DNA of 64,000 bases. It comes from Candidatus Obscuribacter phosphatis. Its GTDB lineage: Bacteria > Cyanobacteriota > Vampirovibrionia > Obscuribacterales > Obscuribacteraceae. The stretch is from positions 124,001 to 188,000 of the forward strand of contig MOYA01000001.1 of the NCBI GenBank assembly GCA_001899315.1. Reading direction: 5' to 3'. The position numbers and the translations under genes are program-made. Of the stretch, positions 49,664 through 60,883 are shown one piece after another. The notes under the pieces were generated by a model that saw only the letters and a list, made by a program, of their open reading frames with translations, was not told where the DNA came from and ran no database searches. Positions within the stretch are counted from its first letter, which is position 1. Every line of letters starts with the position of its first letter.

Positions 49664-50665
49664 TTAGTTCACTTTTGAATTTAGCCCAGCTAGGCGGCTG
49701 CCGTCTTCTTTGCCGCTTTCAGTAAAGCCCTGGCTGCCCATCTGGTGATTGAGCACGGCTGCCATTTTTGAAAGGTCAGAGAGAATGCGTCTTTCTTTGA
49801 CGCCGTTTACGCTCTGTCTTAGGTCGGCAACCAAGGCATTGCCTTGTAAGGCGCTTGCCGGTGAAAATTCTGAGATTGCCAGCTGTCCTTCTTCTAGAAC
49901 TTTCATAAAACGCCGAGCGACGCCGTCTTTTGGTCTCAATTCTGAACGGGAGAGCACATGGTCGGCTGCAGTAAACTCATAACCGGGAGCCACAGTGACT
50001 GCCTTCATAGCTTTGCCGGCGAATGGTCCTTGGTCGAGTTTGGCTTTGACTTTCATACCGACGCCGTCTAGATTCTTCAGACGCAGTACGCCGTTTTCAA
50101 AGCTGATTAAGATGTCTGAATTGGCATCAAGGGCGAGTTTACCGAAAGGTGTGATGATATGGGCATGGCTGGCGGGGCTCTTGATAGAGATGAGCAGCTC
50201 GCCTGAGACCAGCTCTACCACATTGTTTTGAATCATTTTATAGATTGTGCCCGGTGCCCACTTCACCAAAATGCCGTCTGGATTATCGGGGGCGGGTGGC
50301 TCTTTTGGCACAAGACTGGGTGGAATCTTTTGGATGCCGTTTAGAGCGGCATTAGACATGGGGGCATTGAGCTGTTGAAAGTTTGCAGTGGAAGTGACAT
50401 CGGTCGGCACCACCACTGGTGGCCTAAAGGTAGGCAAAATAGGAAATGTAAAACTAGGAAAAGAAGAAGTTGCCGGTGGGTCTGGCACTACCGGCGGTGG
50501 TGCCGGTGGTATATAGGGCGGCAGAGAATCGGTGGTAGGGGGCTCCGAGCGTTCACCGCCAAGGAACGGACTGTCGGTCAACAAAATTTCCGCCGAAACC
50601 GTCTGACCCTGCCAGAGCAGTGCCGAAATAAGTGTCGCGACGGCTATTCTCTTGTTCAGAAACAT
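49664..50665 (-). CDS. Exported FecR-like protein with Pro-rich region
   Basis: 333 residues. Signal peptide (IAVATLISALLWQGQTVSA). A Pro-rich, low-complexity region (about 45-95, PPYIPPAPPPVVPDP). A beta-rich domain (about 130-235) with VVELVSGELLISIKSPASH and VITPFGKLALDANSDILIS, which resembles a FecR-type domain, then PGYEFTAADHVLS. A helical tail. FecR domains often occur in envelope sensors, but no sigma factor is nearby. Separated by 12 bases from the next leftward gene, so probably co-transcribed. Confidence 0.7.
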   Translation of the reverse strand: MFLNKRIAVATLISALLWQGQTVSAEILLTDSPFLGGERSEPPTTDSLPPYIPPAPPPVVPDPPATSSFPSFTFPILPTFRPPVVVPTDVTSTANFQQLNAPMSNAALNGIQKIPPSLVPKEPPAPDNPDGILVKWAPGTIYKMIQNNVVELVSGELLISIKSPASHAHIITPFGKLALDANSDILISFENGVLRLKNLDGVGMKVKAKLDQGPFAGKAMKAVTVAPGYEFTAADHVLSRSELRPKDGVARRFMKVLEEGQLAISEFSPASALQGNALVADLRQSVNGVKERRILSDLSKMAAVLNHQMGSQGFTESGKEDGSRLAGLNSKVN

Positions 50666-55370: not shown

Positions 55371-58300
55371 TTGCGCAAGAAACAGGCCCAAGCAAAGCTG
55401 AAAGTGTTGAACGGGGGCTTCCTCCTTTCCATTTTTATTTGGCAGACTTTTGCGCCAGTTCTAGCTCAGCCTGCCTTACTTCGCTCTGAAGAATTTGTCA
55501 GTTTGAAGCAGAACGAAAATACTGGGGTAAGCGCCTGGTTCAATGAGATAGAACTGAATTCGCCAGGTGAGACTTTTGTTTTGGCTGTCGATGGAAAGCC
55601 TCTGCAAAAGCTTTCGCTTGAGGAGATCAAGAAACTTCTTGACGGACCCTATGGTTCTACTTTGTCTTTAGAGTTGGCCGATTCTCTTGGGCAAACTGCA
55701 GTGAAAACTGTGGTTCGGCAGCCATTGATAAAGCCTACTTCCGAAAATTTAAATCCATTTTTGCATTTTCAAACTTTAGACGCTGCCAATCGCATATCCT
55801 TCGGCAATTTGCTTGAGTTGTCTAGCGTCAATTCAGATATCCTTGCCAAAGCTTCTTGCGATAAGGCAATCGAAGCGATGGAGCAAGGCGGTATGCATTA
55901 TCCGATGGCATACTTCAATGCAGTTTTGTTGCAGCAAGCAGTAGGCGATTTTGCCAGCGCTGATATTTATTTTGAGAAACTGCTCAAAGAAATGAACCGA
56001 ACGGGTGAGCCGATAGAGCCTTCAGTTTATTTTGCCGAACTTGTGCGAAATCTTGTTGCTCTAGGTAAGGTGAGCCAGGCTGAGAAGTTATGCAGAAGTT
56101 TTCAGACCATTAGCAAAGCAAGAGCAAAAGAACAAGTGGGCGGTTACCGTTCGCCCCAGCTTCTTGAGCTGACAGAACTTTATGCCATTATTCCAACTAG
56201 TTCGGCTAAGGCTTGTGGTCTGGCATTGGCTAAAGAACTTGCAGATGAAGTTTCATCTTCCAAGGCGGTAGTCTTTTCTGATGAATGGCTTCGTTTTGCT
56301 CAGGTAATTCAGTCTTATGGTATGACCGAGAGCGCGCTCTTAATCTGTGCTCAATTGGTTACTAAGCCTAAGATTGAAAGATCGAAATTTTATCTGCACT
56401 ATTGTAGAGCCAGGCTAGAGGCTGAACTTGGTCTATTTGCCGCCGCAGAAAATGAGCTTTTAAGTTTGAAAGATAGTATTGCCAAGCTTCCCGATAAACA
56501 GCGCCAGCTTCTCGACCGTTTGCCGGCATTTTTCCCCCGACTGGCTGATCTTGATAGCGCTTTGCTCAGCGTTGCTAAGCACAAAGTACCTGCTGCACCG
56601 CCTCCACTCAAGCCGACTTCGCTTACTTTCGATTATCCAGCCGATACATCGGGGCTAGTTCTGGCAAGAGACGCTCAACTTCTAATTGAGCAGCGAAAAT
56701 TTGATCAAGTGAAAGTAAAGACAAACAAACTTGTCTCAAAATTTGCTGATTCTCGGGCGGCTAAGGCGGGGCAAGCAATAAGACAGAATTATTTCAGCAC
56801 TTGTTTGCATCTGGCGAGAAAGTTGACTGATTGCGGGCAATTGAAGCAGAGCCAAGAACTTTTGAATAAATTGAAGCAAGTCTGTATGGTCAAGCAAGAT
56901 CTCGACTATGACCATGATATCTCTCTGCCGATGATTGCTTCCGAGCTTGCCTATATCAATTACAAAAAGACAGCAGATCCTGATTGGCAAGGCTTTTGGA
57001 CGGCTATGCAGGGAACCCCTAGAGCTGGTCTTGAACAATCTGCATCTAAAGAAGCTAGTTCTAAAGATTTTAGTGCCGAAGATTCTCGTTCAAATAATCT
57101 GCGTCATTTGGCCGTGGCTTTTCATCAAGCAGGTGAGAGCAAGAGAGCGACGCTCTTTATTGATGGAGCGTTGCAGCAAGCTGAGAAGAGACCTGATGCA
57201 AATGGGCTGAGTTTGCTATACACAGACGCTGCAAGAATCTATGCCTGCCAGGGAGATTTTTCTTTGGTGCGCACGCTTTGCACAAAGTCCCTAGCTTATA
57301 AGCCCGATATCGATGAGAGGGTTGCAAATTCTCTGGTCGAACTATGCCAGACGCTTGATTCACGCGGACGCACTCAAGAAGCTTTAGAGATTTTGTTAGG
57401 TTATGAAAAGGTGATATCGTTAGATGCGCGCGCCTGGATTTGTGGTCCGATAGATAGAGAGAAAGCTCTTTTGTATATGAGATTAGGCAATAATCTAGCG
57501 GCACTTTCATCTCTTAAACAAACCTTTCAAGATGATGAGATTTTGAGCCCCCGAGACAGTCTATTGTCTGCGCAAATTTCGGAACGCCTTGGCGACAAGC
57601 CAGCTGCCGCTAGAGCGTATTTGAATGCGGTCGGCCCCACTTGTACGCTATCAGAATCTGAAAAAGAGAAGATCATCAAGAAAGCAATCGACCTTTGCAG
57701 AAGCTCCTCTAAATTGGAAGCGCCAATACTCTCAAGAGCTTATCTGGAATTAAGTGGACTTGAGTATGAGCGCAATGCAGAACTTTCTCTTTCTTTAAGA
57801 GAGAAAGCTTGTGAGCTATTGTCCGATTCAGACAAGGAGAAGCCACGTTTGCTTGAGTCGATAGTTTGGCTTAAGGGCTATTTGGCAGAAAAACAGAACT
57901 CTGCTGGCCATAAGAATATTGATAAACAACGGTCAGATAGACTTTTGAGAGAAAGAATACTCTTTGCCAAAAAGGCTTTGGACCTGGCATTGCGTCAGAA
58001 AAAAGGCGATGCTGTGCATTATTATTTGGCTCTTGCTTTGCTGGAGGTGCAAGCCGGTTTAGTGGACGCTGCCATCAATCATGCCAGACAAGCCATTGAG
58101 ACATACAATTCTGAATATGCCAATTGTGCAAAGTATGAGTATTTAATTGATTGTAGATTGCCCTGTGCCCTAGTGGCGGCTGGTCGTGTGGAATTGGCTG
58201 CTTCTATCCTCGACGAGGCTCAAGCCAGGGTCGATTCGTGTGCCGGTCTCGGCAGTCTTCCTGCGCAGATTCAGATGATGCACCGCTTTAGATTTTGTAT

Positions 58301-58832
58301 GGGACAAAACGATTTTTTGCAGGCAGAGCAGATACTTGATAAATTTCTAGAAACTGATTTAAATCAAGGGCATTATGCACCACCAGAGCATAATGTCCAT
58401 ATATGCCGCGGTCCGGCAGAGTATCCTGTGGAAGCAAGTCAGAGCCTGGTGGTGAGTCTACTCGATGTAATTAGAAGCGCTTCTGGGCAAGCGACGGGTT
58501 CCCTTAAACTGAGGATGCTTGAGAAAATTCTTGCTGCCCAGAAAAAGCAGTTTGAGCCGAATGACTATCGCATAGCTTTAACTCAATGCGCTTTGGGTGC
58601 CTATCTGCAGTCGTCCGGCTTTAACGATAAGGCAGTGGTTGTCTTGCAGTCGGCGATGGAAACAATGCACATTTATGAAAACATGCACTATATTTCAGAG
58701 AAAGTAAATCCAGCATATTTTGCGGCATTGGAAAAATTACACAGACACTCCGAGATAGAATCTTTCAAGCAACTGGTCAATGATGATTGGAAGAACTGGA
58801 AACGCAAAGCTAAGTCAAGGGAGCGCCGTTGA
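55371..58832 (+). CDS. Large exported TPR protein with PDZ-like N-terminus
   Basis: 1153 residues from a TTG. Signal peptide (VLNGGFLLSIFIWQTFAPVLAQ). Residues about 65-125 look like half of a PDZ domain (FVLAVDGKPLQKLSLEEIKKL, GPYGSTLSLELAD). The remainder is a chain of TPR-type helical pairs, for example MEQGGMHYPMAYFNAVLLQQ, VASADIYFEKLL-like units, EALEILLGYEKVI, AGLVDAAINHARQAIE and FNDKAVVVLQSAME. No catalytic motifs. Base composition is slightly more AT-rich than its neighbours. A likely periplasmic scaffold. It is 146 bases upstream of the LRR-serpin gene; that gap has no clear hairpin, so co-transcription is possible. Confidence 0.82.
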   Translation: MRKKQAQAKLKVLNGGFLLSIFIWQTFAPVLAQPALLRSEEFVSLKQNENTGVSAWFNEIELNSPGETFVLAVDGKPLQKLSLEEIKKLLDGPYGSTLSLELADSLGQTAVKTVVRQPLIKPTSENLNPFLHFQTLDAANRISFGNLLELSSVNSDILAKASCDKAIEAMEQGGMHYPMAYFNAVLLQQAVGDFASADIYFEKLLKEMNRTGEPIEPSVYFAELVRNLVALGKVSQAEKLCRSFQTISKARAKEQVGGYRSPQLLELTELYAIIPTSSAKACGLALAKELADEVSSSKAVVFSDEWLRFAQVIQSYGMTESALLICAQLVTKPKIERSKFYLHYCRARLEAELGLFAAAENELLSLKDSIAKLPDKQRQLLDRLPAFFPRLADLDSALLSVAKHKVPAAPPPLKPTSLTFDYPADTSGLVLARDAQLLIEQRKFDQVKVKTNKLVSKFADSRAAKAGQAIRQNYFSTCLHLARKLTDCGQLKQSQELLNKLKQVCMVKQDLDYDHDISLPMIASELAYINYKKTADPDWQGFWTAMQGTPRAGLEQSASKEASSKDFSAEDSRSNNLRHLAVAFHQAGESKRATLFIDGALQQAEKRPDANGLSLLYTDAARIYACQGDFSLVRTLCTKSLAYKPDIDERVANSLVELCQTLDSRGRTQEALEILLGYEKVISLDARAWICGPIDREKALLYMRLGNNLAALSSLKQTFQDDEILSPRDSLLSAQISERLGDKPAAARAYLNAVGPTCTLSESEKEKIIKKAIDLCRSSSKLEAPILSRAYLELSGLEYERNAELSLSLREKACELLSDSDKEKPRLLESIVWLKGYLAEKQNSAGHKNIDKQRSDRLLRERILFAKKALDLALRQKKGDAVHYYLALALLEVQAGLVDAAINHARQAIETYNSEYANCAKYEYLIDCRLPCALVAAGRVELAASILDEAQARVDSCAGLGSLPAQIQMMHRFRFCMGQNDFLQAEQILDKFLETDLNQGHYAPPEHNVHICRGPAEYPVEASQSLVVSLLDVIRSASGQATGSLKLRMLEKILAAQKKQFEPNDYRIALTQCALGAYLQSSGFNDKAVVVLQSAMETMHIYENMHYISEKVNPAYFAALEKLHRHSEIESFKQLVNDDWKNWKRKAKSRERR

Positions 58833-58978: not shown

Positions 58979-60883
58979 TTGACTTCAACAAATGTCATCA
59001 CACTCCATGACGCGCCCAAGAGAGTTGTTAGTTTTCCAGCGGAATATTCTCTGGGCATTCTAACGGCGCACTCTCCCCGCTTTGATCTATTTATTCAAGA
59101 CGAATTTGTTACTGTTCGAGACCTGGCTTTGGGGGCGGCAAAGGGCAATATTGAAGTGCCTACCAATGTTTTGCTTGGGCTAAAGCTTAATAGTGACAGC
59201 GTCTCTAAAATTAGAGAGCTTGCTATCTACAATTTTGATGTGATTAGTCTTGACGGATTGAATCTCACTGCCAGAGACATAGAAGGACTGCTTGAATTGC
59301 CTTCGCTATCGTCCTTGCGCATGACAAGAATGGCTAATGATGAAAATTTAGAGCTTGTGGCAAAATTGACCGGCTTGAAGCATTTAGATTTGAGCAAAAG
59401 CCAGATTACCGATGTGGGTTTGGCAAAGTTGGCTAATTTAGTCAATCTTGAGGAATTGAATCTATCTGGGACTGCCGTCGTCGGGCCGGGTCTTGAGGCT
59501 CTGCATAGCTTGAAAAATTTAACCAGGCTTGATCTTTCTCAAACTCAAATTACCGACCAGGCACTAAATTTTGCCACCGTCTTTGAAGCTTTAGAGAGTC
59601 TTGAGCTAAGTCATACAAGTATCACCGACCAAGGGCTTAAGCACTTGAAGTCGCTGCCCTCCTTGGTGCGTATCGGTATGCTTGAAACAAAGGTGTCGCC
59701 GCATATTATGCGGGTACGGAACTTTCAGAACCTGAGAGTGCCGGAGCAGCTAGAGCCTGAGATGCTGGAGGGCTATAATGGCTTTACCGGCAGAATGTTC
59801 ACTTTTCTCGAGAATAAATATAGGGGAAGAAATTTTGTTGCTTCACCTCTTTCGGTCTTTCTGCTTTTGCATCTGCTTGCGCATGCTGCAGCCGGTTCTA
59901 CCAAGAAAGCTTTCCAAACAGCTCTTTATGCCAGTTGTGGCTCTTTGACATCGGCAGAGTCAGCCACTAGTCTTTTGCGAGAGTTGGAGGCTGTCAACGA
60001 CTGCGTTAAACTCTGGATTGCTAATTCTATATGGTTGTCTAAATCGTTTGAGGTTAACCCTGATTTTGAAGAGTTGGCGAGACTCAGATATGGAGCCGCT
60101 TTCTCAAATCTTGATTCTGATCCATCGCGGTCTAAAGAGATTTTGAACAAATGGACAGAAGAGCAGACTGCCGGCTTAATGAAGGATTTTTTCAGCGAGT
60201 CTGATGCTCAGTCAATGATGCTTCTTGTTAATGTCGTCTATTTTAAGGGGTTTTGGCAGGCGCCCTTTTCTAATGCGCTTACACGGCCTAGAAGTTTCTT
60301 TCTCTCTGACGGCACTGTAAAAGATTGCGAATTTATGCATGCCGAAGATCACTTCGATTATCTTGATTGTCCCGGCTTTGAGTGCGTTAGTTTGCCTTAT
60401 GAGGGCAATCGAGTGCAGATGCATTTCTTCCTTCCCAAAGAAAACCTCAGCGTTGGTCAGTCCATAGACTTTCTTAGAGTCAATTGGATTCGAGTTTTTG
60501 CCGAACTAGAAAGAAAACGAGGCAAGCTCGCCTTGCCAAAATTTAAGATAGATTTGGAAGTAGAGCTAAAGCCTGTCTTTGAGTATCTTGGTCTATCAGT
60601 GCTCATGCAACCTCAAGAGTGTTGTCTGCCCGGACTCAGTCCTGCAGACAAAGATTATCAACTTTTTGTGCAGGATGCTAAGCAGAAAGCCTACTTGAAA
60701 GTTGATGAGAAGGGGACCGAAGCCGCCGCTGTTACCAAAATTTTGATGGCTTCTGGTGGACCGCCCAGAGAGATTCCGGACATATTTCACCTGACCTTCG
60801 AAAGACCTTTTTTCTTTTTGCTAAGAGATAGCATTAGCGGTTTGGTCTTGTTCTATGGCGTAGTTGAAAATCCAGAAAAATAG
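58979..60883 (+). CDS. Leucine-rich-repeat/serpin fusion protein
   Basis: 634 residues from a TTG. Residues about 110-240 are LRR units (KHLDLSKSQITDVGLAKLA, LTRLDLSQTQITDQALNF, SLELSHTSITDQGLKHL). Residues about 268-632 form a full-length serpin: NFVASPLSVFLLLHLL, VNVVYFKGFWQAPF, VSLPYEGNRVQMHFFLP, LPKFKIDLEVELKPVFEYLG, and the reactive-centre hinge E577-KGTEAAAVT-586, close to the inhibitory consensus. Counting from P17 places P1 at about G593, in ILMASGGPPREI; the loop is somewhat long. It ends FERPFFFLLRDSISGLVLFYG, as in serpins. No signal peptide, so it is probably cytoplasmic. It should inhibit a serine or cysteine protease, with LRRs for targeting. Follows the large TPR gene. Confidence 0.93.
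   Translation: MTSTNVITLHDAPKRVVSFPAEYSLGILTAHSPRFDLFIQDEFVTVRDLALGAAKGNIEVPTNVLLGLKLNSDSVSKIRELAIYNFDVISLDGLNLTARDIEGLLELPSLSSLRMTRMANDENLELVAKLTGLKHLDLSKSQITDVGLAKLANLVNLEELNLSGTAVVGPGLEALHSLKNLTRLDLSQTQITDQALNFATVFEALESLELSHTSITDQGLKHLKSLPSLVRIGMLETKVSPHIMRVRNFQNLRVPEQLEPEMLEGYNGFTGRMFTFLENKYRGRNFVASPLSVFLLLHLLAHAAAGSTKKAFQTALYASCGSLTSAESATSLLRELEAVNDCVKLWIANSIWLSKSFEVNPDFEELARLRYGAAFSNLDSDPSRSKEILNKWTEEQTAGLMKDFFSESDAQSMMLLVNVVYFKGFWQAPFSNALTRPRSFFLSDGTVKDCEFMHAEDHFDYLDCPGFECVSLPYEGNRVQMHFFLPKENLSVGQSIDFLRVNWIRVFAELERKRGKLALPKFKIDLEVELKPVFEYLGLSVLMQPQECCLPGLSPADKDYQLFVQDAKQKAYLKVDEKGTEAAAVTKILMASGGPPREIPDIFHLTFERPFFFLLRDSISGLVLFYGVVENPEK

Follow-up and report, generated by a model that had tools for sequence, protein, structure and literature searches.

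What does a serpin do inside a bacterial cell, and why would it carry an array of leucine-rich repeats (LRRs)? To our knowledge, little is known on which proteases bacterial serpins restrain. The question is raised by a gene of Candidatus Obscuribacter phosphatis which lies in the window, that is, the whole stretch of 64,000 nucleotides analysed here. The initial annotation, made from the sequence alone, described an LRR array followed in the same frame by a complete serpin with an inhibitory-type hinge and without signal peptide. The features are the following.

58979-60883, plus strand: LRR-serpin gene, 634 aa, TTG start, stop codon 60881-60883
58979-59239, plus strand: N-cap module, aa 1-87 (FP..SLG.L....G.i.VP..), common to the stand-alone LRR proteins of the family (~245 aa); from the model
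59240-59686, plus strand: LRR array, aa 88-236, seven 24-residue LRRs; from Pfam and the model
59687-59755, plus strand: linker, aa 237-259; low model confidence (pLDDT <50 over 237-255)
59756-60874, plus strand: serpin domain, aa 260-632, helix A to the C-terminus; from the Pfam match (266-632), the fold model and the structure search
60707-60736, plus strand: hinge P17-P8, EKGTEAAAVT, aa 577-586; from the alignment of four orthologs
60737-60781, plus strand: variable reactive-centre loop P7-P8', aa 587-601; from the alignment, low model confidence
60755-60760, plus strand: predicted scissile bond G593-G594; from counting and alignment only
55371-58832, plus strand: neighbouring gene of a 1153-aa exported TPR protein, ending 146 bases upstream of the LRR-serpin gene
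49667-50665, minus strand: 333-aa exported proline-rich protein, with paralogs; its orthologs directly abut the LRR-serpin gene in the genomes G117 and G077 (genus g9)

The fusion protein

The gene is a single uninterrupted frame of 634 residues (58979-60880 without the stop) with a putative TTG start that is also found in the ortholog of the same genus. LRR-serpin is a real fusion of an LRR domain and a complete serpin in one leaderless protein. In Pfam the Serpin profile reaches 265 bits (cut-off 27, E = 1.2e-78) over residues 266-632 and profile positions 3-370 of 370, and before it LRR_4 (45.9 bits), LRR_6 (43.5 bits), LRR_8 (30.8 bits) and LRR_1 (24.1 bits) each exceed their own cut-off. 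No dockerin was detected in the Pfam search at E up to 1.

An AlphaFold2 model of the full protein was built from a 48-sequence alignment (mean pLDDT 86.1, pTM 0.61), and both folds are present. The N-cap, residues 1-87, consists of beta strands and one helix. It is followed by seven LRR strand-helix units with strands at residues 88, 112, 135, 159, 183, 207 and 231, that is, 23-24 residues apart. The pLDDT is about 90 over most of the serpin domain; the reactive loop (residues 591-602) is modelled with low confidence, and the linker looks flexible in the model. Foldseek retrieved antithrombin, latent conserpin and other serpins with E values down to 3e-35 and TMt of 0.80-0.90, and the closest solved sequences to the serpin domain are conserpin (5cdx) and neuroserpin (3fgq). 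Residues 579-590 are modelled as a strand, like in latent or cleaved serpins. This strand is compatible with an insertable hinge and says nothing on activity.

Orthologs and origin of the fusion

Within the Obscuribacteraceae, which belong to the non-photosynthetic cyanobacteria, the fusion is present in 4 of 50 genomes, from two genera: the window genome, G083 of the same genus (65% identity to the window protein), and G117 (39%) and G077 (38%) of the other genus. The three further genes come from separately assembled genomes, are of equal length and have neither internal stop nor frameshift; an assembly artefact or a frameshift between the two halves is therefore ruled out. In the serpin tree the four domains group together (SH-aLRT 99), separate from the family's exported serpins; the support extends to this clade and not to its deeper placement. 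Beyond the Obscuribacteraceae, no LRR-serpin was found in 386 genomes across the phylum, where other long serpins had CarboxypepD_reg, Big_5 or no named second domain. A scan of 84,980 genomes with two serpin peptide patterns, which could miss divergent LRR-serpins, gave full-length matches only in G083, G117 and G077 among the best 80 of 185 loci. Among viruses the scan gave a single distant serpin match, which did not cover the LRRs.

Some other serpins are of note. Another family of the phylum has serpins fused to CarboxypepD_reg and Big_5 domains, and these stand next to further serpins in tandem (L183:5261-8467, minus strand; L184:5790-8045, plus strand). In G001 an exported serpin is extended far at its C-terminus, and the extension holds a weak TPR match (L065:4401-6731, minus strand). 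A serpin with 27% identity is found on a 136-kb IMG/VR contig (L182:3001-4002).

Gene order around the LRR-serpin gene is alike in G083. In G117 the genes at 116993-117928 and 119914-120810 of contig C5 enclose the LRR-serpin gene, whereas in G099, a genome of the second genus without LRR-serpin, the flanking genes (C122, 14976-15794 and 15838-16614) are only 43 bases apart. Because these flanks adjoin, LRR-serpin was cleanly lost or gained. The closest window relative of one flanking gene of G117 and G099 is the gene of the proline-rich protein at 49667-50665, located 8.3 kb from the LRR-serpin gene, and common descent of the locus is therefore favoured over independent fusions.

The LRR half, N-cap included, is homologous over its full length to the stand-alone LRR proteins of ~245 residues that are common in the Obscuribacteraceae. 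These proteins (L188, L189, L187) have a homologous N-cap and LRR array but, unlike LRR-serpin, lack a serpin: behind the LRRs they close with the conserved tail LTKWLSDC.I.R. Similar arrays are also attached, as a module, to an effector domain in LRR-protein kinase fusions of the family (L160, L162, L209); there the effector is a protein kinase and the LRRs are C-terminal, whereas those of LRR-serpin are N-terminal. Since stand-alone proteins match the LRR half and related arrays recur on kinases, LRR-serpin appears to combine two existing gene types by way of a mix-and-match interaction module. It scores 23.8 bits against a cut-off of 1050 for the internalins (NCBIfam class 1) and has no signal peptide. 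Matches to internalin and XopL profiles range from 15 to 24 bits against cut-offs of 500-1600 and reflect shared LRRs only; the identity of an internalin or XopL-like effector is ruled out by these scores.

Two observations concern other LRR genes. In two genera a stand-alone LRR gene is convergent to a PLP-dependent gene, which from reading its sequence we take to be threonine dehydratase-like, and this neighbourhood is conserved (L188:11-928, L189:1916-2884). At L216:1775-5482 an LRR-bearing frame begins with a run of masked bases (N); the exported serpin of that genome follows after ~3.6 kb.

Selection and inhibitory potential

Both halves are under purifying selection. The dN/dS ratios are 0.16 for the LRRs and 0.11 for the serpin between the window gene and G083, with synonymous sites near saturation, and 0.11 and 0.14 between G117 and G077. 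With ratios of about 0.11-0.16 the LRR half is kept by selection. A recent chance fusion is ruled out by the three relatives together with these ratios. The hinge is the best conserved segment: strand 5A and hinge are 91% identical between the window gene and G083 (dN/dS 0.03). The loop P7-P8' belongs to the stretches that diverge most: identity is 27% between the genera and 43% within the second genus, figures resting on about 15 codons. Such a contrast between hinge and loop is what an inhibitor with a tuned loop would usually show.

We compared 35 positions of the window serpin with 137 serpins and found a usual residue at nearly all of them. The clear exception is Ala303, which is Gly in 135 of the 137 serpins and also in the orthologs of LRR-serpin. 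The shutter and breach motifs had been described as intact. Ser289, Ser292 and Asn418 are kept, but the shutter is not fully canonical: besides Ala303, there is Gln569 in place of the shutter His (the His334 equivalent) in all four fusions. Gln is found here in 34 of the 137 serpins and is the second commonest residue.

The inhibitory-type hinge is present as annotated, with Glu at P17 and small residues at P15-P8, and is invariant in the four orthologs save P16 and P9. From P17 to P1 there are 17 residues, the same length as in the exported serpin of the genome. Hinge and loop length follow the pattern expected of an inhibitory serpin; as a sequence feature, the hinge consensus alone is no proof of inhibition. 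Counting 17 residues from Glu577 makes Gly593 the predicted P1; all four orthologs have Gly here, followed by Gly, Ala, Cys or Ser. The real scissile bond may sit one or two residues from G593-G594. A few more serpins of the family share Gly at the predicted P1. Such a P1 is uncommon; only small-P1 proteases would be suited to it, with elastase-like and subtilisin-like enzymes as the best fit.

Location and neighbouring genes

No signal peptide was seen in any of the four LRR-serpins. The window protein has no anchor either, and the stop-to-stop frame extends it by only 10 non-hydrophobic residues upstream. LRR-serpin is probably cytoplasmic. The initial annotation regarded serpins as rare in bacteria, which is not so in the Obscuribacteraceae, where 46 of 50 genomes have Pfam Serpin matches. 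It also regarded a cytoplasmic serpin as unusual. According to a phylogenetic survey (PMC8233489) most prokaryotic serpins do carry transport peptides, and hub-like ones were proposed for intracellular housekeeping; here, however, two of the other three serpins of the window genome are leaderless as well. By a simple hydrophobicity check, a heuristic and not a dedicated predictor, most serpins of the family seem exported and roughly a fifth not. The leaderless serpins of the family thus agree with the survey. As to the target, an internal or a host protease had been considered: with no signal peptide an internal one is probable, but we see no sign of a host protease.

The TPR gene upstream is present as annotated, but it is syntenic only in G083 and conserved only within the genus. 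Distant TPR homologs (28%) in G077 and G099 are followed, on the same strand, by a gene of 374 aa and then by two exported serpins. In genus g9, the TPR protein, the 374-aa protein and the two tandem exported serpins are encoded on one strand (L206:3127-11632, L207:1999-9499) and possibly form a serpin operon. In the stretches examined around the homologs of G055, G059 and G001 there is no serpin. A functional link between TPR proteins and serpins, noticed after the fact, is suggestive and unproven, and we list the TPR gene only as a neighbour of LRR-serpin.

No protease gene is conserved beside the LRR-serpin gene. Co-occurrence gave no link to a target either, as C14 and S8 peptidases are found in carriers and non-carriers alike. 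Peptidase_C14 (caspase-fold) has 10-23 matches per genome in G000, G083, G062, G117, G077, G051, G099, G105 and G059; many of the frames are 450-1000 residues long, and the set looks unusually rich.

Proposed mechanism and alternatives

Many animal serpins depend on cofactors or surface patches. We suggest, giving it about an even chance, that LRR-serpin is a cytoplasmic inhibitory serpin with the LRR solenoid as a built-in exosite. We infer the inhibition, the cleavage site, the target and the role of the LRRs, namely that they recognize a protease. Inhibition could proceed in the following steps. The LRRs would bind a specific intracellular partner and bring the serpin to it; the partner could be a scaffold, the target protease or the complex of that protease. 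The protease would then cut the exposed loop near G593-G594. Upon cleavage the GTEAAAVT hinge would insert into beta-sheet A and the protease would finally be trapped as a covalent acyl complex.

LRR-serpin could instead be a plain housekeeping cytosolic inhibitor in which the LRRs serve for stability, dimerisation or anchoring only and add no protease specificity. We regard this as possible, if unlikely. Intracellular housekeeping has already been proposed for the hub-like prokaryotic serpins (PMC8233489), and the two other leaderless serpins of the genome work, if at all, without LRRs. LRR proteins are moreover very common (31 matches in the window genome), so that chance fusion partners abound. 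Against this stands the purifying selection on the LRR half since the two genera split.

Serpins undergo a large conformational switch upon cleavage. A protease-activity sensor, in which cleavage of the loop switches the serpin fold and thereby alters LRR binding, would use this switch in place of inhibition. By its sequence the hinge is insertion-competent, and the shutter Gln and P1 Gly could fit a substrate-like serpin. We consider a sensor improbable, however: the protein has no second signalling domain besides the LRRs and the serpin, the shutter Gln is common in other serpins, and the low-confidence, flexible-looking linker gives little reason to expect that the two halves are tightly coupled.

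An effector against a host protease, injected or otherwise exported, appears very unlikely to us. The weak LRR matches to internalins and XopL, far below threshold, would speak for it, but they are due to shared LRRs, the protein has no signal peptide or anchor, no host is known and leaderless LRR proteins are many in the family. A non-functional or degenerating chance fusion is extremely unlikely since, despite its patchy occurrence and the adjoining flanks in G099, the gene is intact in four genomes with a dN/dS of about 0.1 and the hinge as its best conserved part.

Returning to the inhibitor with a built-in exosite, one more specific version is that LRR-serpin acts as the brake of an intracellular proteolytic pathway, e.g., of caspase-fold (C14) peptidases, the LRRs docking the inhibitor on the activated protease complex. 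This version we hold to be quite improbable. The arrangement would recall the LRR-controlled proteases of eukaryotic immunity, except that there the receptor carries the LRRs, whereas here the inhibitor would.

Relation to known serpins

LRR-serpin resembles the inhibitory serpins (MEROPS I4, PF00079) in domain, fold, hinge consensus, P17-P1 length and nearly all core residues; it differs by the N-terminal LRR solenoid, the P1 Gly, the shutter Gln for His and Ala303 for Gly. Bacterial serpins with a placing module are known from cellulosomes (PMC2930009, PMC5301203), namely Doc-SERPIN of Ruminococcus flavefaciens and PinA of Clostridium thermocellum. These dockerin-serpins are exported and their dockerin binds scaffoldins, whereas LRR-serpin is leaderless and carries LRRs. 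Cofactor-templated inhibition is likewise established, also for a bacterial serpin (PMC10090351): in Chloropin of Chlorobium limicola a template cofactor speeds inhibition, and its counterpart in LRR-serpin would be the putative exosite. Chloropin, however, has a single domain and a signal peptide, and its cofactor is DNA or heparin, whereas the putative exosite of LRR-serpin would lie within the polypeptide. In the literature searched we found neither an LRR-serpin nor any paper on an Obscuribacter serpin. Thus, serpin-module fusions and template-assisted inhibition in bacteria are already known, but the LRR as the fused module of a serpin, which we did not find elsewhere in the genomes and papers searched, looks new.

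LRR-serpin suggests that bacteria can build the exosite of a serpin as a separate domain. The LRR half could serve as bait for the target, and this would put to the test the idea that bacterial serpins control proteolysis inside the cell.
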